Positions 3,219 through 27,376 of a stretch of 64,000 bases of DNA are shown here, in pieces. The stretch lies in the NCBI GenBank assembly GCA_016936755.1, contig JAFGXF010000045.1, positions 1-64,000 on the forward strand, given 5' to 3'. The DNA comes from Anaerolineaceae bacterium (GTDB taxonomy: Bacteria > Chloroflexota > Anaerolineae > Anaerolineales > Anaerolineaceae). The number at the start of each line of letters is the position of its first letter. Positions within the stretch are counted from its first letter, which is position 1. A model generated the notes under the pieces. It saw nothing but the letters and a program-made list of their open reading frames with translations, did not search any database and was not told where the DNA came from. The position numbers were made by a program, and so were the translations under genes.

Positions 3219-4286
3219 ATGGAGATTAAAATCGGTTCCAATCTGATTGGGAATGAGCACCCCACTTACTTCATCGCGGATATTTCTGCCAACCATGATG
3301 GGGATATGGAGCGGGCTAAAATACTCATTCACCAGGCAAAAGAGGCCGGCGCTGATGCAGCCAAATTCCAAAACTTTCGTGCGCCAAAGATTGTTTCGGA
3401 TTATGGATTTAAGTCATTGGGCGACCAGGTCTCACACCAGGCAACCTGGAAAAAATCAGTTTTTGAGGTCTACCAGGATGCATCGCTTCCTTTCGATTGG
3501 ACCCCAACATTGGTAGAAGAATGCGCCGATGCAGGCATCGATTATTTCTCGTCACCGTATGATTTTGAGGCCGTCGATATGCTTGATCCATATGTTCCGG
3601 CTCATAAGATAGGGTCAGGAGATATTACTTGGAGTGAGATGTTGGAGCATATTGCGCGTAAAGACAAACCGATCATACTGTCTACAGGCGCTTCTGATAT
3701 CGGCGATGTTCAACGTGCAGTCCATGCCATTTTACCGATTAATAAGCAGTTGGTGCTTTTACAATGCAACACCAATTACACTGCCAGCCTCGAAAATTAT
3801 GATCATATTCATCTGAATGTGCTGAAGACCTATCGACTAATGTTTCCAGATGTGGTGATTGGCCTGTCAGACCATACCAGTGGCCATGCCACAGTTTTGG
3901 GCGCCGTGACACTAGGGGCTCGCGTCATCGAGAAGCATTTTACGGATGACACGAATAGAATAGGGCCCGACCATCCTTTCTCCATGACACCCAAAACCTG
4001 GCGGGATATGGTGGATCGGACGCGGGAATTGGAAAGATCCATGGGTTCAGCTGAAAAGATTATTGCCGGTAATGAAGTTCAGACGGCAGTGGTTCAACGT
4101 CGCTGCTTAAGAGCTGCGCGGGATATTAAAGCGGGGGAGAGAATCACACGTGAAATGATCGATGTCTTGCGACCAGCCACGCCGGGAGCGATTCTACCGT
4201 TCGAGGTTCCATTGGTCATTGGCAAACGCGTGTTGGTCGACCTGCAATATGGGCAAGAGTTGCGTTGGATTCAAATTGGAGAGTAG
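3219..4286 (+). CDS. NeuB-family nonulosonic acid synthase with C-terminal SAF-like domain
   Basis: YFIADISANHDGD, AKFQNFRAPKIV, KIGSGDITW, LSTGASD, GLSDHTSGHA, EKHFTDD motifs; C-term RAARDIKAGERITREMIDVLRP is SAF-like. Confidence 0.9.
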   Translation: MEIKIGSNLIGNEHPTYFIADISANHDGDMERAKILIHQAKEAGADAAKFQNFRAPKIVSDYGFKSLGDQVSHQATWKKSVFEVYQDASLPFDWTPTLVEECADAGIDYFSSPYDFEAVDMLDPYVPAHKIGSGDITWSEMLEHIARKDKPIILSTGASDIGDVQRAVHAILPINKQLVLLQCNTNYTASLENYDHIHLNVLKTYRLMFPDVVIGLSDHTSGHATVLGAVTLGARVIEKHFTDDTNRIGPDHPFSMTPKTWRDMVDRTRELERSMGSAEKIIAGNEVQTAVVQRRCLRAARDIKAGERITREMIDVLRPATPGAILPFEVPLVIGKRVLVDLQYGQELRWIQIGE

Positions 4287-5404
4287 TGCGGGTACTTTAT
4301 TTTCAAAGGGATGATACAGTACACGATCGCCGATTTCTGGATGTATTGAGCAGAATGCCGGTGGAAATATTCGCGTTGCGTCTTGAGAATGACACAACGC
4401 GGACAAATGATTGGCATCCACCCCATAATATTAAATATGTTTCCTTTACGAAGAATGATAAATTCCGATGGAGAAACGAAGCAACGGTGGTTAGTGACCT
4501 GCAAAGAATTTTCCGTGAGATCAAACCCGATGTCGTCCATGCTGGACCGGTGGATCTTTGTGGTTTCTTGGCCGCGCGGGCAGGTATGCAGCCTTTAATA
4601 TCCATGTCTTGGGGATATGACTTGCTTGTCAACGCCGTCAGGAGTATGAAGGCCCGCTGGCGAGTTCAATACGCACTCAAACAGACAAGAGTGTTATTGA
4701 CAGATTGTCAAACGGTCAGTGATAAGGCTGTCACATTAGGATATGCCACTGATCCTATCGTGACCTTTCCCTGGGGGGTTGATTTACAGGTTTTTCACCC
4801 ATCGACTGACAGAAAAATTCACCAGACATCTTATGATCCTGACCATATTGTTCTACTATCCACCCGCAGTATGGAGCAACAATATGGGTGTGATGTTATT
4901 ACAGAATCATTCATCCATTTGGCCAGAAATGATAAACGATTGCAACTGATCATGCTGGGTGACGGTTCACAGCGACAAAAAATAATTCAAAAAATCTCTT
5001 TGGCTGGCATGGCAAAGAGAGTGAGATTTGTTGGTACGGTGCCTGAATTTGAGATGCCGTCATATTTCCATGCCTGCGATTTATATATCAGCGCATCGCA
5101 TAGCGATGGAAGTTCGGTATCGCTCTTACAGGCGATGGCTTGTGGACTACCACCCCTGGTTTCCGACATTCCGGGAAACCGTGAGTGGGTCAGCGCAGGT
5201 GAAAACGGCTGGTTGTTTGTTGATGGGGATTCTGACAGTCTCGCAAATAAAATATTAGAAGCAGCTAATTCGCCGAAGCTTCGGAAGTTGTATGGTGCAG
5301 CTTCACGAAAGATAGTTGAGACCAGGGCAGACTGGGGCCATAATAGTGCCAGGCTGATGGACGCTTATCGTATGGCAATCGATCGCAGAGTGGTGAACGG
5401 ATAA
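4265..5404 (+). CDS. Glycosyltransferase family 4 / group 1
   Basis: GT-B C-terminal motif SHSDGSSVSLLQAMACGLPPLVSDIPGNREWV; overlaps the neuB stop. A later start near 4289 is possible. Confidence 0.85.
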   Translation: MDSNWRVVRVLYFQRDDTVHDRRFLDVLSRMPVEIFALRLENDTTRTNDWHPPHNIKYVSFTKNDKFRWRNEATVVSDLQRIFREIKPDVVHAGPVDLCGFLAARAGMQPLISMSWGYDLLVNAVRSMKARWRVQYALKQTRVLLTDCQTVSDKAVTLGYATDPIVTFPWGVDLQVFHPSTDRKIHQTSYDPDHIVLLSTRSMEQQYGCDVITESFIHLARNDKRLQLIMLGDGSQRQKIIQKISLAGMAKRVRFVGTVPEFEMPSYFHACDLYISASHSDGSSVSLLQAMACGLPPLVSDIPGNREWVSAGENGWLFVDGDSDSLANKILEAANSPKLRKLYGAASRKIVETRADWGHNSARLMDAYRMAIDRRVVNG

Positions 5405-5408
5405 AGAT

Positions 5409-6194
5409 ATGCAGAACGATAACAGTGGAACAATTGCTATTGTTCAGGGGCGTATGTCTTCCAGCCGTTTACCGGGCAAGATACTGATGGATATCGGCGG
5501 CCAACCCATGTTGATGCGTGTGGTTAACCGCGTCAGGCGTGCACAAACCGTAAACCAGGTCGTTGTGGCGACGACCGAGGATTCGAGTGACAATCCAGTG
5601 GAAACCCTTTGTCATAACAGGGGTGTCCCAATCTTCAGAGGCAGTCTGTATGACGTCCTAGATCGGTTTTATCAGGCAGCTATATTATTTCAGGCAACCA
5701 GTGTTGTTCGTGTAACCGCAGATTGCCCATTGATTGATCCTGTGGAAATCGATCATGTGGTGCATGCCTTTCATGAGCAGGATGTGGATATTGCTGCCAA
5801 TCGATTGCCGCCACCCTGGAGGCGAACATACCCGATTGGGTTGGATGTCGAAGTATGTAAAATTGAAGCACTTGAACGTGCCTGGTGTGAAGCTAAAAGT
5901 CCCCATGAACGGGAGCATGTAATGCCTTACCTTTATGAGGAAACCGGCAGATTTAAGGTCCTGGTAATCGATCACCCAATAGATTATGGTAACTTACGAT
6001 GGACGGTTGATACCCCCCAGGATTTGGATGTGATTAAGCTGATCTATCAACATTTTTCATATTGTGATGATTTTTCATGGTTGGAGGTAATAGACTTATA
6101 TCGGCGTCAACCGGAGTTGGCCAGTATGAACCAACAGATTCAACACAATCCATATAATTCCATTGATCCACGCATGAAAGGCGGGGATGCATGA
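5409..6194 (+). CDS. SpsF-type cytidylyltransferase (CMP-nonulosonate synthetase-like)
   Basis: IAIVQGRMSSSRLPGKILMDIGGQPML, DCPLIDP, WTVDTPQDL motifs of the SpsF family. Confidence 0.85.
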   Translation: MQNDNSGTIAIVQGRMSSSRLPGKILMDIGGQPMLMRVVNRVRRAQTVNQVVVATTEDSSDNPVETLCHNRGVPIFRGSLYDVLDRFYQAAILFQATSVVRVTADCPLIDPVEIDHVVHAFHEQDVDIAANRLPPPWRRTYPIGLDVEVCKIEALERAWCEAKSPHEREHVMPYLYEETGRFKVLVIDHPIDYGNLRWTVDTPQDLDVIKLIYQHFSYCDDFSWLEVIDLYRRQPELASMNQQIQHNPYNSIDPRMKGGDA

Positions 6195-13362: not shown

Positions 13363-14595
13363 ATGAAAAAGCAGAAAAGTGAAGTATTGGCAATCATCCC
13401 AGCTCGCGGTGGTTCAAAAGGCATCCCTCGGAAAAATGTCCGCGACTTGGCTGGATTTCCACTGATCGGTTTTTCAATTGCGAGTGCACGTGCATCCACA
13501 TTCGTGACACGAGTTATCGTAACAACGGATGATGAAGAGATTGCTGCGATAGCCCGACAACTTGACGCGGAAGTCCCTTTCATGCGGCCGCTTGATTTGG
13601 CAATGGATGATACTCGTGATTTACCGGTTTTTCAGCATGCCCTGAACTGGCTCACGGAGAACGAGAATTATCAACCGGATATCGTAGTTCACTTGAGACC
13701 CACCACCCCAACCAGGAAGCGCGGCTCCATCGATCAAGCTGTAAAGATATTTTTGGATAACCCTCACATCGACTCAGTTCGATCGGTCATTATTCCAAAT
13801 GAAAATCCGTTTAAAATGTGGAAGATACTATCGGATGGTCGAATGGAACCGCTGATTTCGCATAAAGTTGTTAGCGAGGCGTATAATGCACCACGCCAGA
13901 CCTTGCCAATTGCTTATTGGCACAATGGCCAGATCGATGTGGTCAGCCCAACGACCATACTCGAAAAAAAATCGATGTCAGGAGATATGATATTACCGAT
14001 TGTGCTGGACCCCGCTTATTCACTCGATATTGATACTAATGAGAATTGGCAATACGCCGAATGGGTTATCCGTTCACGAAAACTGGATATGGATTACCCG
14101 GGCAAACTGCTGAGACCCTGGCCGAAAAAAGTATCCCTGGTCGTATTCGATTTTGATGGTGTTATGACAGACAACCGGGTATGGGTGGATGAGGGTGGGC
14201 ATGAAATGGTCGCGGCCAACCGTTCAGACAGTTACAGTATCTCCCGGTTAAGAGCACAAAGCATCCCACTACTGGTAATTTCCACTGAAACAAATCCAGT
14301 AGTGGAAGCCCGCTGTCGCAAGATGAAAATTGATTGCATCCAAGGTGTAAAAGATAAGGCAATGGTTTTAAAGGATGTGCTGGAAAGCAAAAGAATTGCT
14401 GCACATGAGACGATATTTGTAGGTAATGATATAAATGATCTGGGTTGTTTTGAATTGGTTGGATTTGCCGTAGCGGTCGCAGATGCATTGCCAGAGGTGG
14501 TTAGTCAGGCGGATATGGTTCTGACTCATAAGGGTGGCCATGGTGCTGTGCGTGAAATTTGTGAGTTGGTTTTGGATATGCTTGCCAAGAATTAA
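13363..14595 (+). CDS. Bifunctional CMP-acylneuraminate synthetase / KdsC-like HAD phosphatase
   Basis: N-term AIIPARGGSKGIPRKNVRDLAGFPL (canonical NeuA P-loop); C-term LVVFDFDGVMTD and FVGNDINDLGCFELVG (KdsC/HAD motifs). Confidence 0.9.
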   Translation: MKKQKSEVLAIIPARGGSKGIPRKNVRDLAGFPLIGFSIASARASTFVTRVIVTTDDEEIAAIARQLDAEVPFMRPLDLAMDDTRDLPVFQHALNWLTENENYQPDIVVHLRPTTPTRKRGSIDQAVKIFLDNPHIDSVRSVIIPNENPFKMWKILSDGRMEPLISHKVVSEAYNAPRQTLPIAYWHNGQIDVVSPTTILEKKSMSGDMILPIVLDPAYSLDIDTNENWQYAEWVIRSRKLDMDYPGKLLRPWPKKVSLVVFDFDGVMTDNRVWVDEGGHEMVAANRSDSYSISRLRAQSIPLLVISTETNPVVEARCRKMKIDCIQGVKDKAMVLKDVLESKRIAAHETIFVGNDINDLGCFELVGFAVAVADALPEVVSQADMVLTHKGGHGAVREICELVLDMLAKN

Positions 14596-14633
14596 TCAAG
14601 AACAGGGTAAAATTTACTTAGGAGAGAAGGTTA

Positions 14634-15503
14634 ATGAAAGAAGTTCAAATCGGCAAATTCACAGTCGGGGAGGGGCACCCCACCTTTATTGTGGCAGAAA
14701 TTGGTATCAACCATAATGGAGATATCAACATCACCAAAGATCTCATTCGTGTTGCCAAGCATGCCGGGGTTGACGCTGTCAAGTTTCAAAAACGAACACC
14801 TGAACTGTGCGTTCCAGTTGAACAACGTGATCAAATGCGGGAAACCCCCTGGGGTTATATCTCCTATATGGAATACAGGCAAAAAGTGGAATTTGGCGGA
14901 ACCGAATATCAAGAGATTGATCGGTTTTGCAGAGAAACGGGAATTACATGGTTTGCTTCTGTTTGGGATGAAGAAGCGGTAAATTTCCTGGAACCATTTT
15001 CCCCGGTTTGTTATAAAATCCCATCTGCCTCATTAACGGATCATTCTTTATTGAAGCACATTCAAAAAACAGGGAGGCCAGCGATTCTTTCCACCGGCAT
15101 GTCCACCGATGAGCAAATTAGTGATGCGGTCAAAGTAATCGGAATGGACAACTTAATCATTGCCCATTCCACCAGCACCTATCCATGTGATCCTGATGAA
15201 TTGAACCTGAAAATGATCCAAACATTGCGCTCACAATACCCCTGTCCGGTGGGTTATTCAGGACATGAGGTGGGTTTGATAACAACCGTGGTGGCTGTAA
15301 GTTTGGGCGCATGCATGGTGGAACGCCACATCACACTTGACCGTGCCATGTGGGGCAGTGATCAAGCAGCTTCAATTGAACCCGGAGGCCTTGAACGACT
15401 TGTTAAGTATGTGCGTGTAACCGAACAAGCACTCGGCGATGGTATTAAAAAGGTATATGATAGTGAGTTACCGCATTTAAGGAAATTGCGACGAATCCAT
15501 TAA
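14634..15503 (+). CDS. NeuB-family synthase lacking a SAF domain
   Basis: FIVAEIGINHNGD, AVKFQKRTPELC, YKIPSASLTD, ILSTGMSTDEQI, GYSGHEVG, ERHITLDRAMWGSDQAASIEP; ends at 289 aa. Confidence 0.9.
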   Translation: MKEVQIGKFTVGEGHPTFIVAEIGINHNGDINITKDLIRVAKHAGVDAVKFQKRTPELCVPVEQRDQMRETPWGYISYMEYRQKVEFGGTEYQEIDRFCRETGITWFASVWDEEAVNFLEPFSPVCYKIPSASLTDHSLLKHIQKTGRPAILSTGMSTDEQISDAVKVIGMDNLIIAHSTSTYPCDPDELNLKMIQTLRSQYPCPVGYSGHEVGLITTVVAVSLGACMVERHITLDRAMWGSDQAASIEPGGLERLVKYVRVTEQALGDGIKKVYDSELPHLRKLRRIH

Positions 15504-15748: not shown

Positions 15749-17131
15749 ATGAGTAAAATGGAAAACGTCTCAGGATCATTTCGTGACCCCAATGGGTTTC
15801 TTTTTACCCGTGGAAAAACGCTATATCGACAGGTCAATAAAGCTTATCAGAAGCACTACAAACTTCTGATGACTTCAGGCTTGTATTCCAGGTTGGTTGA
15901 TGATGGTCTGTTAGTCAAGCACGAGGAAACCAGTCAATCGCCGCTGAACCAGACATTGGCATACAAAGTAATTAAACCCGAGACAATTGGATTCATTAGT
16001 TATCCGTATGAGTGGTGTTTCAGTCAGTATAAAGATGCCGCACTATGTACTTTATCCATTATGAAGCACGCGCTTGAGTTTAATATGGTCTTAAAGGATG
16101 CCAGTGCATATAACATCCAATTTCTTAATGGCATGCCCCTGTTGATTGACACGCTTTCATTTGAAAAATATCAAGAGGGTTATCCATGGGTTGCCTACCG
16201 TCAATTCTGCCAGCATTTTCTTGCTCCTTTGGCATTAATGGCAAACACCGATATTCGGATGAGTCAGTTGATGCGAGTGTACATTGATGGTGTTCCACTC
16301 GATCTGGCAAGCTCTCTGCTTCCAGCGAAAACCAAGTTCAACCTGGGATTGCAAGCACATATTCATTTGCATGCATCTGCTCAGAAACGTTATGCGGGCA
16401 AGGATATTAAAAAAGTAGTGCAGCAACGAAAAGTTTCCAGGATGGCTTTTTCGGGTTTGGTAAACAGTTTGGAATCCACCGTGAAAAGTCTTGACTGGAA
16501 ACCGGAAGGAACTGAATGGGCTGAATATTATTCAGGAACAAATTACACAGATACAGCTTTTGAGTCCAAGAAAACATTACTAGAGGACTTGATCTCGATA
16601 GCTAAACCAAAGTCCATCTGGGATCTGGGAGCGAATACCGGTATTTTTAGCCGTGTGGCTACTAGTCAGGGAATAACAACCATCTCTTTTGATGTTGATC
16701 CGGCTGCAGTGGAAATTAATTATCTCGAATCAAAAAAGGCCAAGGAAAAGCATATACTCCCACTTTTGCTGGATCTAACGAATCCAAGCCCCGCCATTGG
16801 CTGGGCAAATGAAGAACGTCTGTCCTTTAAGCAACGCGCTCCAACTAATTTGACCATGGCGCTGGCACTTATCCACCATATGGCTATTTCTAACAATGTT
16901 CCTCTTCCTTCACTGGCAGAATTCTTCAGCCGATTGTCTCGATATCTCATCATTGAGTTCGTCCCTAAAGAAGACAGCCAGGTCCAACGGCTCCTGGTCA
17001 GCCGCGAAGATATATTTCCCAATTATCACCAGGAAGGCTTTGAGGATGCATTTAAGGCATATTATCGTGTGATTAAAGCGCTGCCAATCCCAGAGACAAA
17101 ACGCAGGTTGTACTTAATGGAGCGTCATTGA
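15749..17131 (+). CDS. SAM-dependent methyltransferase, NoeA-like
   Basis: SIWDLGANTGIFSRVATSQGITTISFDVDP SAM motif; N-term SGSFRDPNGFLFTRGKTLYRQVN resembles NoeA-like methyltransferases. Confidence 0.75.
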   Translation: MSKMENVSGSFRDPNGFLFTRGKTLYRQVNKAYQKHYKLLMTSGLYSRLVDDGLLVKHEETSQSPLNQTLAYKVIKPETIGFISYPYEWCFSQYKDAALCTLSIMKHALEFNMVLKDASAYNIQFLNGMPLLIDTLSFEKYQEGYPWVAYRQFCQHFLAPLALMANTDIRMSQLMRVYIDGVPLDLASSLLPAKTKFNLGLQAHIHLHASAQKRYAGKDIKKVVQQRKVSRMAFSGLVNSLESTVKSLDWKPEGTEWAEYYSGTNYTDTAFESKKTLLEDLISIAKPKSIWDLGANTGIFSRVATSQGITTISFDVDPAAVEINYLESKKAKEKHILPLLLDLTNPSPAIGWANEERLSFKQRAPTNLTMALALIHHMAISNNVPLPSLAEFFSRLSRYLIIEFVPKEDSQVQRLLVSREDIFPNYHQEGFEDAFKAYYRVIKALPIPETKRRLYLMERH

Positions 17132-18765
17132 GGGCGACCAGAGAAAAGTCCGGTTTTTTTTTCAGGGGTAGTGTTTTTATTCGACAAATGACTGTTTCAG
17201 CGAGGCAGTCATTTAATGACCGCCGAATCCTCAAATTGGATTCAGAAATTGCCCGTATCACTTCACAAACTAATAATACCGCACCCATTGTAATCTTCAA
17301 TGCTTCTACAAGAATAACCGGACTGAGCCAAAATGCTGCGTTTGCTCTTTTAACTGCATGGGCGTTGAGGTTATCAGGCCAGAGAGTGATTCAATTTATT
17401 TGTTCTCAGGGCATGAAACAATGCATATTGGGCACCAGCCGTGAGAATGTATGGCGGAATCCCCCATGCAAAAGTTGCATGGCGCAATCTCAACGCTTCT
17501 TCAGGAATAGCGAACAGGTAACATTTACCTACCATGAGGTCCTGCCTTTGAAGTCTGCAATCGAGAGTTTGAACATCCAACAACTGGCAACCTTCTCGTA
17601 TGAGGGGGTGGGTCTGGGTGAAATGGTATTACCTTCAATCCGCTGGGTGCTCAGACGACATCATCTTTTTGACGACCACAATACAAAACACCTCTACCGG
17701 CAGTTCATTCTTTCTGCCTGGAGCGTGATCAAAAACTTTGAAGAATTAATAACTAGGAATAAACCCAAAGCAGTTTTGGTTTTCAATGGTATGTTCTTCC
17801 CTGAGGCAGCTGTACGTCATGTGGCATTAAAGAACAACATTCGGGTGATCACCCATGAGGCCGGCATTCAATCTTTTTCCGGATTCTTTACCGAGGGCGA
17901 AGCGACCGCGTACCCATTATCAATCCCCCATAACTATAAGTTATCAGCGGCTCAAAATAAACAGCTGGATTCTTATCTTGAAAAACGCTTTGAAGGTAAA
18001 TTTTCCATGGCAGATGTTCAATTTTGGCCGCAAATGAATGATCTTGGTAGTGACCTGTTGAATGATATTCAGCGATATCAACAACTCGTAAGTATTTTTA
18101 CCAATGTTATTTTTGACACCAGCCAGCCACATTCGAATACCCTTTATTCGGATATGTTCGAATGGTTAGATAGCCTGCTGCCTGTTATTAATCAGTATCC
18201 TAAAACTCTTTTTGTGATACGAGCCCACCCAGACGAAACACGTCCAGGCAAGACAAGTCAGGAAACAGTGGCCGATTGGACTAAACATCGGGAGTTACAA
18301 ATCTATGAAAATGTACGGTTTATTAACCCCGAACAATACCTCAATTCTTATGAATTGATCAAAAAAGCGAAATTCGTGTTGGTTTATAATTCCACGGTTG
18401 GACTTGAAGCAGCCATTCTGGGGGTTCCCGTATTGTCGGCCGGCAGGGCGCGTTTTACACAATATCCTACCGTTACATTTCCGAAAACACGCGTTGCTTA
18501 TCTAAAAAAGCTTGATGAATTCATGAAAGCGAAAAGTATAAAAAGAGTGCCATCCCAACAAACCCAGGCAAGAAGGTTTCTGTATTTCCAGCTTTTTAAG
18601 ACATCACTGCCTTTCAATAAATACTTACAAGCCGATGGAATCTGGCGTGGCTTTGTTAGATTGACCAATTTCGGACCGGATCAATTAAGAGCAGAAAATT
18701 CAGAAACCATGCGGGTGCTAATTGAGGGGATAATTTCCGGCAAGCCATTCCTGGCGAGTGAATGA
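17128..18765 (+). CDS. GT-B-like capsular polysaccharide biosynthesis protein
   Basis: LFVIRAHPDETRPGK and FVLVYNSTVGLEAAILGVPVLSAG motifs. The start is uncertain: TTG at 17128 or ATG around 17188. Confidence 0.6.
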   Translation: MRATREKSGFFFRGSVFIRQMTVSARQSFNDRRILKLDSEIARITSQTNNTAPIVIFNASTRITGLSQNAAFALLTAWALRLSGQRVIQFICSQGMKQCILGTSRENVWRNPPCKSCMAQSQRFFRNSEQVTFTYHEVLPLKSAIESLNIQQLATFSYEGVGLGEMVLPSIRWVLRRHHLFDDHNTKHLYRQFILSAWSVIKNFEELITRNKPKAVLVFNGMFFPEAAVRHVALKNNIRVITHEAGIQSFSGFFTEGEATAYPLSIPHNYKLSAAQNKQLDSYLEKRFEGKFSMADVQFWPQMNDLGSDLLNDIQRYQQLVSIFTNVIFDTSQPHSNTLYSDMFEWLDSLLPVINQYPKTLFVIRAHPDETRPGKTSQETVADWTKHRELQIYENVRFINPEQYLNSYELIKKAKFVLVYNSTVGLEAAILGVPVLSAGRARFTQYPTVTFPKTRVAYLKKLDEFMKAKSIKRVPSQQTQARRFLYFQLFKTSLPFNKYLQADGIWRGFVRLTNFGPDQLRAENSETMRVLIEGIISGKPFLASE

Positions 18766-19344: not shown

Positions 19345-20022
19345 ATGACTGATATCGTTGCGCTTGTTCCAATGCGCCATCAATCCATGCGCGTTCCAGA
19401 GAAGAATTATCGCCTGATAGCTGGCAGGCCTTTATATACTTACATACTCGATACACTTGCTGCCTGTTCTGAAATCAGCCAGATCGTTGTGGATACGGAT
19501 AGTTCGGTAATCAAGGATGGGCTGAGAACTCAATATCCACGAGTGAGGGTCATAGACAGGCCTGCGCATTTATGTGCAGATACCATACCGATGAACGAGG
19601 TTCTGTTATATGACTGTGAATTGGTTAAGGCAGACTTGTATTTACAAACCCATGCTACCAACCCATTGTTATCAACAGCCAGCCTTTCAGAAGCCATTCG
19701 ATCACTATTAACGAGTCGGCAGGAGTACGATTCGTTGTTCTCGGTTACAAAACTACTTACTCGGTTATGGGATGCGTCAGGAAAGGCATTGAATCACGAT
19801 CCTCAATATCTGATTCGTACCCAGGATTTGCCACCCGTTTTTGAAGAGAATTCTTGTATTTATATTTTCAATGGAAAGATCCTGGCCGAGCGAAAAAACC
19901 GCCTTGGGTACCATCCGATGATGTTTGAAATCAATGCAAATGAAGCCTGGGATATTGACACAGAATCGGATTTTGAGGTTGTGGAAAGTCTTATTCAGAA
20001 TCGACGAGCCAGGACAAGTTGA
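19345..20022 (+). CDS. Acylneuraminate cytidylyltransferase-like protein, divergent clade
   Basis: MTDIVALVPMRHQSMRVPEKNYRLIAGRPLY, LYLQTHATNPLL, FEINANEAWDIDTESDF. Start refined from ORF start 19312 to the ATG at 19345. Confidence 0.8.
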   Translation: MTDIVALVPMRHQSMRVPEKNYRLIAGRPLYTYILDTLAACSEISQIVVDTDSSVIKDGLRTQYPRVRVIDRPAHLCADTIPMNEVLLYDCELVKADLYLQTHATNPLLSTASLSEAIRSLLTSRQEYDSLFSVTKLLTRLWDASGKALNHDPQYLIRTQDLPPVFEENSCIYIFNGKILAERKNRLGYHPMMFEINANEAWDIDTESDFEVVESLIQNRRARTS

Positions 20023-20055
20023 TATAATCGTATACCTCTATCAAAGATACCAAAC

Positions 20056-21051
20056 ATGAAAAAAGTATTATTAAGCGCCCCTTATATGATCCCAATCGCC
20101 GAAGAATTACAACCAGTATTCAATCATTATGGCATTGAAATGGTTATTGCGAATGTGAAAGAGCGACTGGATGAGGCAGCCTTGTTAGAATATGCCGGAA
20201 CCATTGATGGGGCAATCTGCGGAGATGACCAATACAGTGAGAAGGTTCTGAAGGCGTTTTTACCACGCTTAAAAGTCATTTCGAAATGGGGAACCGGAAT
20301 TGACTCGATTGATCAAAATTCTGCCAAGCGACTTGGCATTCAGGTGCGAAATACGCCCAATGCTTTTACAGCGCCTGTGGCAGATACAGTCATGGGTTTT
20401 ATACTGTCTTTTGCACGCAACATTCCCTGGATGGACGCGGTTATCAAAGAGGGGCAGTGGGTAAAATTAATGGGAAAATCATTATCTGAGTTGACCCTGG
20501 GTGTAATCGGTGTGGGTAATATCGGCAAGGCTGTCATGCATCGCGCGCGCAGTTTTGGGATGACATTGCTCGGTAATGATATTGTCCAAATCGATCAAGC
20601 CTTTATCGATAAGAACCAGGTGTCCATGGTTTCTTTGGATGACCTGTTGATTCAGGCGGATTATGTGAGTCTGAATTGTGATCTTAATCTGACCAGCCGG
20701 AAGTTAATGAACGCAAACAGATTTGCAGTTATGAAATCGGACGCAGTATTGATTAACACTTCCCGGGGAAGCGTGGTGGATGAGCTTGCATTAATCGATG
20801 CGTTACAGACGAAAAAAATCCGGGGTGCCGCTTTGGACGTGTACGAGGATGAGCCTTTGAAAGCGGATAACCCCTTGTTAAAAATGGGGAATGTTTTACT
20901 TGGCGCTCATAATTCCAACAGCAGCCCGATGGCTTGGGATAATGTGCATTGGAATACGATACGAAATCTTTTGCAAGGCCTGGAGATTTCGTGCGATGAT
21001 CTTAACCAGGTTCGACAGTCGAATGTGATATCAATTGGAGGTGTACCATGA
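20056..21051 (+). CDS. D-isomer-specific 2-hydroxyacid dehydrogenase (phosphoglycerate dehydrogenase-like)
   Basis: KWGTGIDSID, LGVIGVGNIGKAV Rossmann motif, INTSRGSVVDE, YEDEPL, LLGAHNSNSS. Confidence 0.85.
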   Translation: MKKVLLSAPYMIPIAEELQPVFNHYGIEMVIANVKERLDEAALLEYAGTIDGAICGDDQYSEKVLKAFLPRLKVISKWGTGIDSIDQNSAKRLGIQVRNTPNAFTAPVADTVMGFILSFARNIPWMDAVIKEGQWVKLMGKSLSELTLGVIGVGNIGKAVMHRARSFGMTLLGNDIVQIDQAFIDKNQVSMVSLDDLLIQADYVSLNCDLNLTSRKLMNANRFAVMKSDAVLINTSRGSVVDELALIDALQTKKIRGAALDVYEDEPLKADNPLLKMGNVLLGAHNSNSSPMAWDNVHWNTIRNLLQGLEISCDDLNQVRQSNVISIGGVP

Positions 21052-21815
21052 TGACCAATAAGCATCCGGTGGTCTTGATCACCGGTGCGGCTGGCGGGAT
21101 TGGGAAAGCCACGGTGAATGAATTCCATGATCACGCCTGGTCTGTGGTTGGGGTGGATCGATCAGATTATGGTGAGCCTTTTCCCACGCCCGGCCTGTTC
21201 ATTCGAGCAGACATATCCAATCCTTCTGATATATCTGTTATTTATAAAAAAGCCCAGGCATTCAGTGACCATCTAAATGCCGTTGTAAATAATGCGGCAG
21301 TTCAGGTATCCAAACCACTTATCGATACAACTCCTGAAGAGTGGGATATGGTCATGGCTTCAAACCTGCGTTCAGTTTTCCTGGGTGCGAAGCTTGCCCA
21401 CCCATTATTAAAAGCAGCCGGTGGTGGGGCGATCGTCAATGTGTCTTCTGTACATGCTATTGCAACCTCGAAAGACATTGCGGCTTATGCGGCTTCGAAG
21501 GGTGGATTGCTTGCACTCACCCGTTCCATGGCGATTGAATTTGCTGCGGATGATATTCGTGTAAATGCCATTCTACCCGGGGCAGTGGATACGCCAATGC
21601 TACGGGCAGGTATGCAGCGAGGCCACGTGGGCGGGAAAACCGTTCTCGACCGCCTTGAGAATCTGGCAAGGAAGACGGTAAACGGTCGGGTGGGTCAGCC
21701 GACAGAAATCGCCAGTTGTATCTATTTCCTTGCAGACGAGACTCAATCATCCTTTATGACCGGACAAGCCATGATCGTGGATGGTGGTGCGACTGCTCGC
21801 TTGAGTACGGAATAA
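21048..21815 (+). CDS. SDR-family oxidoreductase
   Basis: VLITGAAGGIGKAT, NNAAVQ, VNVSSVHA, YAASKGG, GAVDTPM motifs of classical SDRs. Confidence 0.9.
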   Translation: MMTNKHPVVLITGAAGGIGKATVNEFHDHAWSVVGVDRSDYGEPFPTPGLFIRADISNPSDISVIYKKAQAFSDHLNAVVNNAAVQVSKPLIDTTPEEWDMVMASNLRSVFLGAKLAHPLLKAAGGGAIVNVSSVHAIATSKDIAAYAASKGGLLALTRSMAIEFAADDIRVNAILPGAVDTPMLRAGMQRGHVGGKTVLDRLENLARKTVNGRVGQPTEIASCIYFLADETQSSFMTGQAMIVDGGATARLSTE

Positions 21816-21818
21816 TTA

Positions 21819-22658
21819 ATGCAAAAAGAAAAAATTAAAAGAATTTTACCGACATCCATCTGGAGGGCAGGTTCCCAGGCCTACTGGTGGTGGCACAATC
21901 GTGGACGACATGTTTCTTCCAGATTGACTTCCCCGGTTTGGCGTTGTAACCGCAAGCAAATGTTGGTATACGAAAATATCCATGCTGGAAAAAGGGCATT
22001 CATAATCGGGAATGGGCCCAGTTTGAAGCACATGGATCTTGGTCTATTAAAAAACGAGATCACTTTTGGTTTAAATCGTATCTATCTTGCATTCCCTGAG
22101 ATTGGATTTTCCACCACCTATTTGGTTTCTGTGAATGATCTGGTACTTGAACAGTGTGCCAAGGAGATGGCGAAACTGAATGTCCCCAAATGGATTACGT
22201 GGCGTGCACATAAGCATTTCAAACCGGATGGCAAGACTCATTTCATTGATAGTGATTATACGGGAGCAGAAGACTTCAATCATACGTGCTTATCCGGTCG
22301 TTTTTTTGAAGGTTTCACGGTAACCTACGTGGCTTTACAAATTGCCTATCTCATGGGAATACGTGAAGCCATCCTGATCGGTGTTGATCATAACTTCTCC
22401 ACCAAAGGGCCTGCAAATACAGTTGTGGTTTCCACAGGAGATGACCCGAATCATTTTTCTGGAAAATATTTTGGCCGGGGTTTCAAGTGGCAATTACCCG
22501 ATTTAGAGGGTTCAGAGCGGGCATACCACCTGGCCTACAATACTTATAAAGCCAATGGCCGCAGCATTCTGGATGCAACGGTGAACGGGAAATTAACGAT
22601 ATTTGACAAAGTGAATTTCACAACTTTATTTTCCCAGAACGGTAAGGGCAAGGCATGA
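21819..22658 (+). CDS. DUF115 / MptE-like protein; candidate MAF/CstII-like glycosyltransferase
   Basis: AFIIGNGPSLKHMDLGLLKNEITFGLNRIYLAF and AILIGVDHNFSTKG. Confidence 0.65.
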   Translation: MQKEKIKRILPTSIWRAGSQAYWWWHNRGRHVSSRLTSPVWRCNRKQMLVYENIHAGKRAFIIGNGPSLKHMDLGLLKNEITFGLNRIYLAFPEIGFSTTYLVSVNDLVLEQCAKEMAKLNVPKWITWRAHKHFKPDGKTHFIDSDYTGAEDFNHTCLSGRFFEGFTVTYVALQIAYLMGIREAILIGVDHNFSTKGPANTVVVSTGDDPNHFSGKYFGRGFKWQLPDLEGSERAYHLAYNTYKANGRSILDATVNGKLTIFDKVNFTTLFSQNGKGKA

Positions 22659-24422: not shown

Positions 24423-26378
24423 ATGTTAATCCTCTTGCCTGTGGTCGTTTCAACTCTCTTGTACCTGATTTGTTTTGGTTTGTTAACCAAAAGAGAATCT
24501 GCAGGAGATGCTTTACGCTCATCAGTTATCTACACCATGATGGCAGTTTGTCTATTTACCTGCCTGATGATGGAAGGATTGAGTTTATTTTCTTTCATTA
24601 CCCGGCCGGTGATTATTGCCATATGGAGTGTCATTCTCGTGGCAATGGTTACCCTGACATGGCGAAAGGGATATCAACAGGCTGTATTTGTTGAATTGCG
24701 AAATTGGTGGAACAGTATCAAACTGGCACGCTATGAAAAGCCACTCAGTATATTCACCGCGTTTTACCTTGTTGTTTTATTTCTGATCGCACTTTTAGCT
24801 CCACCCAATAACAATGACTCATTACAATACCACATGGCGCGTGTCATCCACTGGATACTGAATCGCGACCTCAATTACTTTCCGGTCGCATATCTACCAC
24901 AATTGTTTAATCCACCCGGTTCGGAAACATTGTTGCTGAATATGTTCCTGCTGACTGGAAATGACCGGTTGGTTAATCTATTGCAGTGGTCAATGATGGT
25001 CTGTTCAATAGCAGTTGTCTCCCTGGTTGTTAAAAAACTGGGAGCTGGTCGCCTGGGTCAATGGTTGTCGGTATTATTCCTGCTGTGTTTACCGGTTGGT
25101 ATTCTTGAATCCACATCGACACAGAATGATTACGTCAGTGCTTTTTGGATCTTGTGCCTGGTTTATATGGTGGTGAAAGACCGCCAGCAGGTTTACTCCA
25201 AAATCGATGTGCTTGCCTTGGGTGTTTTGGCAGGATTGGCGATGCTGGTGAAGGTTGCTGCTTATCCATATGTGGCAGTTATTTTGATATGGGCGATATT
25301 CTCAAAATACAGACTAATAGGTATCAAACAGTCGATCATCCATTCATCTATCATTATCTCGATAATGTTGTTGCTCAACCTGCCTGGGTGGCTAAGAAGT
25401 CAACAGGCATTTGATAATCCGTTGGGCAATGCAGCTTTTATCGGCCGGCGAACGCCGAGTGTCTTAGTTCCGGCTGATTTGTTGATCAGCCCCATTCAAC
25501 ATCTGGCTTTGAATATTGGTACACCCTTCGATGTTGTTAACGAGAAGGTGGGGAGTGCCATTATCTCGATGTGTGAAAAGCTGGGTGGATCGAACTGCTC
25601 CACACCCGAGACCAGCGAGTGGGGTTTTCGGATCATTGGATTATCGAACCATGAAGATTCAGTTGGAAATTTATTGCACCTCTTTTTGGTATCAATGGTT
25701 GTTGTCGCATTAATATTTACTAAGAAGAAACCCCCTGAGCTGAAATATCTTGTCATCTATACATTGACAATCTTTGCGGGTTTTCTCCTTTTCAGTTGGC
25801 TGGTAACATGGGGGGCATACTGGGGACGACTTCAACTTCCGTTATTCGTTTTAACAGCGCCCATTTTTGGTGTGGTTGTCGAGAAATGGAGAAAGCCGCT
25901 TGTCTGGAATCTGACAGCTCTGCTTTTGGTATGTGGTTTACCGTGGTTATTGATGAACCGAACACGTCCTATTATCTCCCATACCCCGGATATAACGCTT
26001 GTTAAGAGCATCTTTGTTGAATCAAGGTATTCTCTTTTATTTGCCAACTACCCTGAGCTCCAAGACCAAATTGCGCATGTCACCAGTGAGGCAATTGCCA
26101 GCAATTGTTCAAAGATATCATTAAAAATTGATTCGCGAGACCCCGAGTATTACTTTATGGCATATCTGGAACCCTGGAAAAATGATATTGAGATTGAATC
26201 AGTCCCCGGCGACCCGGAATTGAATCGATATAAAGATCCAGATTTTCATGCATGTGCTCAGATCTGTTCCATCTGTGGAAATGAACCAGGTTCCAACGGA
26301 TTGATCCTGGTTTATAAAGACAAGGCAATGACCTTATATCTATCACCCGAGTACTACGAGGAATATCAAGGCCGATGA
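24423..26378 (+). CDS. GT-C-like polytopic membrane protein
   Basis: Multiple TM segments; [22 protein letters not shown] loop; start closely follows the preceding gene. Confidence 0.65.
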
Positions 26379-27376
26379 CTGATAAGTCAGCAGTTGTCTC
26401 AATCATAACGCCCTCATATAACCAGGCCAAATATCTGGAACAGACGATTCAATCTGTTTTATTTCAAAATTATCCAGAAATAGAGTATCTGATCGTGGAT
26501 GGTGCATCTACAGATGGCAGTGTGGACATCATTCGAAAATACGAAGAAAGGATCTCTTATTGGGTAAGCGAAAAAGATCAGGGGCAGGCTGAGGCTATCA
26601 ACAAGGGGTTAAAGCGCGCATCTGGCAAGTACGTTGCCTGGTTGAACTCTGATGATCTCTATTACCATCCAAGTGTGGTCACAGAAGCAGTATCCATTCT
26701 GGAAGCTGACATGCGGCTCGGGATGGTATATGCCGATGGGGTGATGGTGGATGCACATGGACGGCTGTTGGATTGGCATCGTTATCCTCAGTATGGTTTA
26801 CTCGACCTCCTGTCATTCAATGTGATCCTGCAGCCCACGGTTTTTATGCGTCGATCTGTTTTGGAAAAAGTTGGATTCCTCGACCCACATTATGAGTTGG
26901 TACTGGATCATGAGTTATGGATACGGCTGGCCACATATCATCCCATACGGCATGTGAATTCCTTTTGGGCTGTCGAGCGCACACACGAACAGGCTAAAAC
27001 AATTGCGAGTGCGGCCAGATTTGTAGAAGAGGCGTTTGCCTGTATCGAGTCCAAGCAAGCAAGTGGACCATTGGTCAGGACAATAAAAGATAACCAGGCA
27101 AAGATATTTTCTGGGGTGCACGTCTTTTCGGGAAAGCGTTTGATAGATGCTGGATCTTTTAACACTGCCCTGAAGCATTTCCAGTCCGCCTGGAAATATG
27201 ATCCAGTGGCTGTAATAAAGATGTGGTATAAGGTGGTCCAGGCGGCAGGCGGTGCTCTTGGTTTGCGTGGATTGTTCTTTAGATACCGCGCGGCACGTCG
27301 CAGAATCCAACACAACGATAGAAGACTGTATATCGACAAGTCTGGAATTCATTGGTCTTCGGATGAAAAAAGCTAG
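26375..27376 (+). CDS. Glycosyltransferase family 2
   Basis: [46 protein letters not shown]. Confidence 0.9.

Follow-up and report, generated by a model that had tools for sequence, protein, structure and literature searches.

A cytidylyltransferase clade linked to a 2-hydroxyacid dehydrogenase in an Anaerolineales glycan locus, and its possible role in the synthesis of CMP-activated sugar acids

The window (the whole stretch of DNA analysed, 64,000 nucleotides) covers the opening 64 kb of an 86.7-kb contig from an Anaerolineaceae bacterium, the genome of which is 2.29 Mb in size and 87% complete. Within an Anaerolineales glycan locus, four intact open reading frames (ORFs) on the + strand make up a compact operon: a CMP-acid synthetase of the CTP_transf_3 family and of a dehydrogenase-linked clade (19345..20022; Pfam, clade motifs, AF2 fold, and tree), a PGDH-like D-2-hydroxyacid dehydrogenase, hereafter HADH (20056..21051; Pfam, alignment, PDB match, and adjacency), a classical SDR (21048..21815; Pfam, alignment, PDB match, and linkage), and an MptE-like/DUF115 protein, the proposed CMP-acid transferase (21819..22658; Pfam, profile, AF2 fold, and linkage). 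The preliminary description had called these genes near-contiguous, and this was confirmed on the + strand with Pfam support for each ORF; the last 4 bp of the HADH gene are shared with the SDR gene. The cytidylyltransferase starts at GTG 19312 or, likelier, at ATG 19345. A DSP/PTP-type phosphatase gene (PF22784, 18762-19337) precedes its ORF and overlaps the GTG start; this gene was not among the conserved neighbours in the related loci.

The locus contains three CTP_transf_3 genes (5409, 13363, and 19345), two NeuB genes (3219 and 14634), and many glycosyltransferases, and looks like a polysaccharide synthesis locus. Two further CMP-acid gene sets are found in it. The set at 3219-6194 consists of a NeuB with a SAF domain and an SpsF-like cytidylyltransferase, and the set at 13363-15503 of a NeuA-KdsC fusion (13363..14595, +; NCBIfam PseF and KdsC matches, placed with CMP-Neu5Ac synthetases in the tree) and its partner NeuB2, a short NeuB without SAF (14634..15503, +; PF03102, 1.5e-76). 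The fusion reads as ordinary NulO activation neighbouring the module. Other context genes on the + strand are a Capsule_synth/Epimerase_2-like gene (17128..18765; Pfam; 45/70 related loci) and a conserved downstream GT2 glycosyltransferase (26375..27376; 46/54 loci). The 17128-18765 protein carries a PPCKSC motif, is co-conserved in Anaerolineales with NeuB2 and the module, and may be a KpsC/KpsS-related transferase of Kdo or NulO.

The 19345 enzyme was matched by the CTP_transf_3 profile with an E value of 1.8e-26 (93.8 bits, cut-off 22.6; Pfam), and in the alignment it had the invariant S, R, and KN of the CTP loop as well as the DID metal motif of CTP_transf_3 CMP-acid synthetases. Its best NCBIfam match was PseF, below threshold (74 bits, cut-off 205.7). 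The P-loop was as given earlier, PMRHQSMRVPEKN. The methionine that follows its serine, where lysine is canonical, had been taken as a mark of novelty; this was rejected because the position varies within the clade (Q in 20, V and E in 8 each, A in 3, and M, T, and K in one each of 43 orthologues, one being undetermined) and, in the solved CMP-Kdn synthetase 9t4z, is occupied by Val. Better marks of the clade are THxTNP and RTQDLxPxxxENS, which stand in place of the sugar-pocket motifs, the CTP and metal motifs being kept. Thus, QxTSP is changed to HxTNP, the loop bearing K142 (N. meningitidis numbering) is shortened, and the RQ motif is changed to TQD. The Q of QxTSP, K142, and R165, which we take to be the sugar-binding residues of canonical NulO synthetases, are accordingly replaced by H, a shortened loop, and T. 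CMP-Pse synthetase likewise departs at two of these three positions, and the threonine in place of the RQ arginine does not settle the matter, because Ser is found at this point in the solved structure of that enzyme. The neighbouring NeuA-KdsC retains the PRQ motif.

The AF2 model of the 19345 enzyme had a pLDDT of 87, with low confidence at residues 157-167 in the sugar-pocket region. Its closest folds were 9t4z and then the CMP-Neu5Ac synthetases 6ifd and 1eyr, and KdsB structures matched worse than NeuA structures. The nearest relatives were Anaerolineales proteins. In the maximum-likelihood (ML) tree, the enzymes of both locus types described below (A and B) formed one cross-phylum clade (support 95/95), apart from the solved CMP-Neu5Ac, CMP-Kdn, and CMP-Pse synthetases; the NeuA-KdsC and NeuB-adjacent enzymes also fell outside it. 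No characterised ordinary NulO synthetase was found in the clade among those included in the tree, which bears out the earlier proposal that the cytidylyltransferase is distinct from the standard type. By tree placement, pocket residues, and NeuB partner, it does not group with canonical CMP-NulO synthetases. Two clade members had no demonstrated HADH link: L171, at a contig end, and L174 (G836:C1:50553), which is followed by an aminotransferase-like gene and lies near NeuB and NeuA-like genes.

The HADH had both Pfam domains and the NAD motif of D-2-hydroxyacid dehydrogenases (2-Hacid_dh_C, 1.3e-54), with conserved R237, E266, and H285, read as the catalytic set from the alignment. Its best PDB match was the phosphoglycerate dehydrogenase 1wwk, and none of the NCBIfam equivalog cut-offs was reached. 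The SDR (adh_short_C2, 3.1e-51; best PDB match 3vtz, glucose 1-dehydrogenase) was assigned to the classical SDRs by alignment, on the N106, S134, Y147, and K151 tetrad and the glycine-rich TG motif. Some loci have no SDR, e.g., beside the G176 gene, and it is therefore perhaps not essential.

The MptE-like profile (PF01973) matched the DUF115 protein with an E value of 1.5e-11 (44.8 bits, cut-off 34.6), and the DUF115 profile found the sialyltransferase Cst-II weakly (E 0.0011). The AF2 model (pLDDT 91) had the Maf glycosyltransferase 5mu5 as its best fold match (E 3e-6, TM-score on the query 0.48), followed by MptE-type HPPK and then the human sialyltransferases ST6GALNAC2 and ST8SiaIII. Profile and fold together place the protein in the Maf/DUF115 glycosyltransferase superfamily. 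The earlier suggestion that it transfers a CMP-acid is upheld by the modelled fold, which is that of CMP-acid transferases; the activity itself is proposed on these grounds. On a Thalassovita plasmid, a 4740-bp gene (L136:12464-17203) adjoining CTP-HADH-GalE encodes an exceptionally long MptE-like protein; KdsA and a KdsB-like gene are on this plasmid too, as are an SDR and an SMP-30 lactonase. The lactonase, found in two genomes only (Thalassovita and Sulfitobacter), was weighed as support for an aldonate route.

GTDB representatives were scanned for relatives of the cytidylyltransferase; 569 encoded them (candidate stretches), and 80 loci, mostly from Anaerolineales, were kept. The loci were selected by the cytidylyltransferase alone, and the denominators are loci with enough flank. 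HADH lay directly after the cytidylyltransferase in 66/74 loci (median gap 49 bp), SDR was present in 57/68, and DUF115 in 55/63, and the gene association previously noted in one genome thus recurs in others. NeuB2 was found upstream in 37/59 loci and NeuA-KdsC in 36/55, and HADH was just behind NeuA-KdsC in 0/40. No other gene was as tightly adjacent as HADH, and the conservation of gene order in the module was far above chance. When neighbours were clustered in 105 loci (a few genomes being represented twice), HADH was obtained in 95, SDR in 84, DUF115 in 72, and an upstream GT2, absent from the window, in 63. The commonest Anaerolineales order was NeuA-KdsC, NeuB2, Capsule_synth-like, cytidylyltransferase, HADH, SDR, DUF115, GT2, GT2. 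A protein of ~675 aa that is often encoded between the cytidylyltransferase and HADH was rejected as a pathway enzyme; it reads as membrane GT-C-like and had no Pfam match. One Chloroflexota-like cytidylyltransferase (L082) was on a contig labelled beta proteobacterium, either by horizontal transfer or by misbinning.

Outside Anaerolineales, two locus types were distinguished. The type A layout (optional members in brackets) is (GT2), (KynB-like cyclase), cytidylyltransferase, HADH, SDR, (DUF115), and was found in a distant member of Chloroflexota (L039, with overlapping module genes), in Pseudomonadota (L149), and in L130 and L165, which belong to the phylum of G201, Myxococcota according to the ML tree. 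The core stood without a nearby NeuB2 in L039, L130, and L165 and, in Pseudomonadota, in L149, L136, L137, and L139. Related CTP-HADH pairs are carried on Rhodobacterales and Rhizobiales plasmids. In type B, an HpcH/HpaI aldolase replaces HADH-SDR behind the cytidylyltransferase, sometimes with cyclase and DUF115, and most loci add a second HADH subfamily, an HAD phosphatase, and an NAD epimerase. Nine type B loci were found (L052, L110, L138, L167, L168, L169, L170, L172, and L173), and the components were confirmed by Pfam in L167. The aldolase was closest to the YfaU and GarL-type 2-keto-3-deoxy-sugar-acid aldolases and to HpaI. The L110 cytidylyltransferase is ~58% identical to that of the window, yet has a type B cassette behind it. 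This Chloroflexota cassette (L110:8303-13866) consists of cyclase, cytidylyltransferase, HpcH aldolase, HADH, HAD, and NAD epimerase genes, partly overlapping. Two further candidates were discarded: the HpcH aldolase as an unlinked type A component, as no match was found in G168, G176, G200, G203, G021, G201, G563, or G699, and the cyclase (PF04199) as essential in Anaerolineales, as none was found in the single-contig genome G176.

The cytidylyltransferase clade is separable from NeuB. Four genomes had clade members and no full NeuB: G699, G673, G082, and G898. The type A genome G699, an almost complete chromosome, carries the GT2X-cyclase-CTP-HADH-SDR cluster within a contig of 3.06 Mb. Its NeuB matches were weak and partial only; the stronger of them, at 2475400, was dismissed, as its ORF reads as a DAHP synthase. 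No NeuB matches were found in the type B genomes G673 and G082 (98% complete), and one weak partial match in G898, the type B genome of L110 (completeness not given). In G021, G201, G465, G563, G841, and G842, every full NeuB match had another CTP_transf_3 gene within ~5 kb, and the window NeuB2 likewise pairs with its own NeuA-KdsC. NeuB was present in the type A genomes checked other than G699, and supply in trans is therefore possible there. The statement that the cytidylyltransferase has no NeuB partner was thus right in substance, but incomplete, given the two NeuB and two other CTP_transf_3 genes of the locus.

On balance, the module probably serves to make a CMP-activated 2-keto sugar acid by a route other than NeuB, and to attach it. 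Starting from a sugar or a hydroxyacid, HADH would, with SDR, make the acid or complete it; in one chemically simple route, SDR would oxidise an aldose to the aldonate, and HADH would then oxidise C2 to give the 2-keto acid. The 19345 enzyme, assigned by family, would join this acid to CTP, yielding a CMP-sugar acid, and the DUF115 protein would move it to an acceptor at the surface, either a glycan or a protein. A second, ordinary NulO would be provided for the same locus by NeuA-KdsC and NeuB2 upstream. In type B, the acid may come instead from the HpcH/HpaI aldolase with dehydrogenase, epimerase, and phosphatase. More tentatively, there may be a route to CMP-sugar acids that needs no PEP-condensing synthase (NeuB/KdsA), with HADH and SDR in type A, an HpcH/HpaI aldolase in type B, one cytidylyltransferase clade, and often DUF115 as the transferase. 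The idea of a module for a non-standard CMP-activated acid came from the preliminary description; recurrence, the separate clade, the separability from NeuB, and the DUF115 fold speak for it, the methionine cue has fallen away, and the identity of the acid and the chemistry of HADH and SDR, including its direction, are suggested by family and position. No publications on this gene set were found in the open-licence literature.

The main rival explanation, which appears unlikely but deserves weight, is that the module tailors a NeuB-made NulO: HADH and SDR would oxidise, reduce, or epimerise the NeuB2 product, and the 19345 enzyme would be specific for the tailored NulO. NeuB2 and NeuA-KdsC are indeed upstream in ~63-65% of Anaerolineales loci, PseF is the best (if below cut-off) NCBIfam match of the enzyme, and NulO transfer is a known activity of Maf-type proteins. 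However, G699 has the module but no NeuB, and the type B genomes G673, G082, and G898 have no full NeuB; elsewhere, NeuB has its own synthetase. Among the loci clustered, moreover, no NeuB2 cluster member was beside the module outside Anaerolineales; beyond that set, the exception is L174, which has NeuB and NeuA nearby but no HADH.

The tight HADH adjacency, which persists in distant phyla despite a differing locus, and the different HADH subfamily in the same place in type B make a second rival improbable, namely that SDR and HADH act outside the acid pathway, produce a different sugar for the same glycan, and are neighbours through conservation of the whole locus. This rival is suggested by the lack of SDR in some loci and by the numerous glycosyltransferase and membrane-protein genes that are interspersed with these genes and flank them. 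Activation of Kdo or a Kdo derivative by the 19345 enzyme, as a second KdsB, is very improbable. The SxRVPGKN loop is similar to that of the KdsB/SpsF type, and in Thalassovita KdsA and a KdsB-like gene are near the cytidylyltransferase, but KdsB structures fit the model worse than NeuA structures, none of the CTP_transf_3 genes matched in the window's genome, which is 87% complete, was KdsB-like, and a further strong CTP_transf_3 match at another site in G699 is presumably KdsB. To our knowledge, Anaerolineales do not carry Kdo-containing LPS.

If the clade does work with a dehydrogenase or an aldolase, as we favour, it would point to undescribed sugar acids in bacterial glycans and would aid the annotation of hundreds of genomes, cultured organisms such as Longilinea arvoryzae KOME-1 (L111) included. 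It would also suggest a likely donor type for the MptE-like/DUF115 proteins encoded in polysaccharide loci, which are poorly characterised. The CMP-activated acids known to us (sialic acid, Kdo, Pse, and Leg among them) are derived from PEP-condensing synthases. With NeuA, PseF, and CMP-Kdn synthetases, the window clade shares the CTP_transf_3 fold, the S/R/KN of the CTP loop, and the DID metal motif, but it differs in THxTNP, RTQDLxPxxxENS, a shorter pocket loop, its separate position in the tree, and HADH instead of NeuB as the partner. Two pathways were set beside the module by description. Campylobacter PtmA-PtmB, an SDR and a CMP-legionaminic acid synthetase, resembles it in the adjacency of SDR and CMP-acid synthetase and in the Maf-type transferases of the locus; PtmB works with the NeuB-type LegI, and there is no HADH. 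The Shewanella Kdo8N pathway resembles it in having a variant sugar acid built by a dehydrogenase and a dedicated CMP synthetase, and it starts from KdsA-made Kdo with a dehydrogenase of a different family. The HpcH/HpaI aldolases (YfaU/RhmA and GarL), the family of the type B aldolase, are absent from the window module; the known 2-keto-3-deoxy-sugar-acid aldolases of this family are described as catabolic, and the type B aldolase differs from them in that its gene adjoins a CMP synthetase. The DUF115 protein shares the DUF115/MptE-like fold and the GNGPSL-type motif with the Maf flagellin glycosyltransferase (5mu5) and MptE/HPPK, but is short and single-domain and is encoded in a polysaccharide locus.
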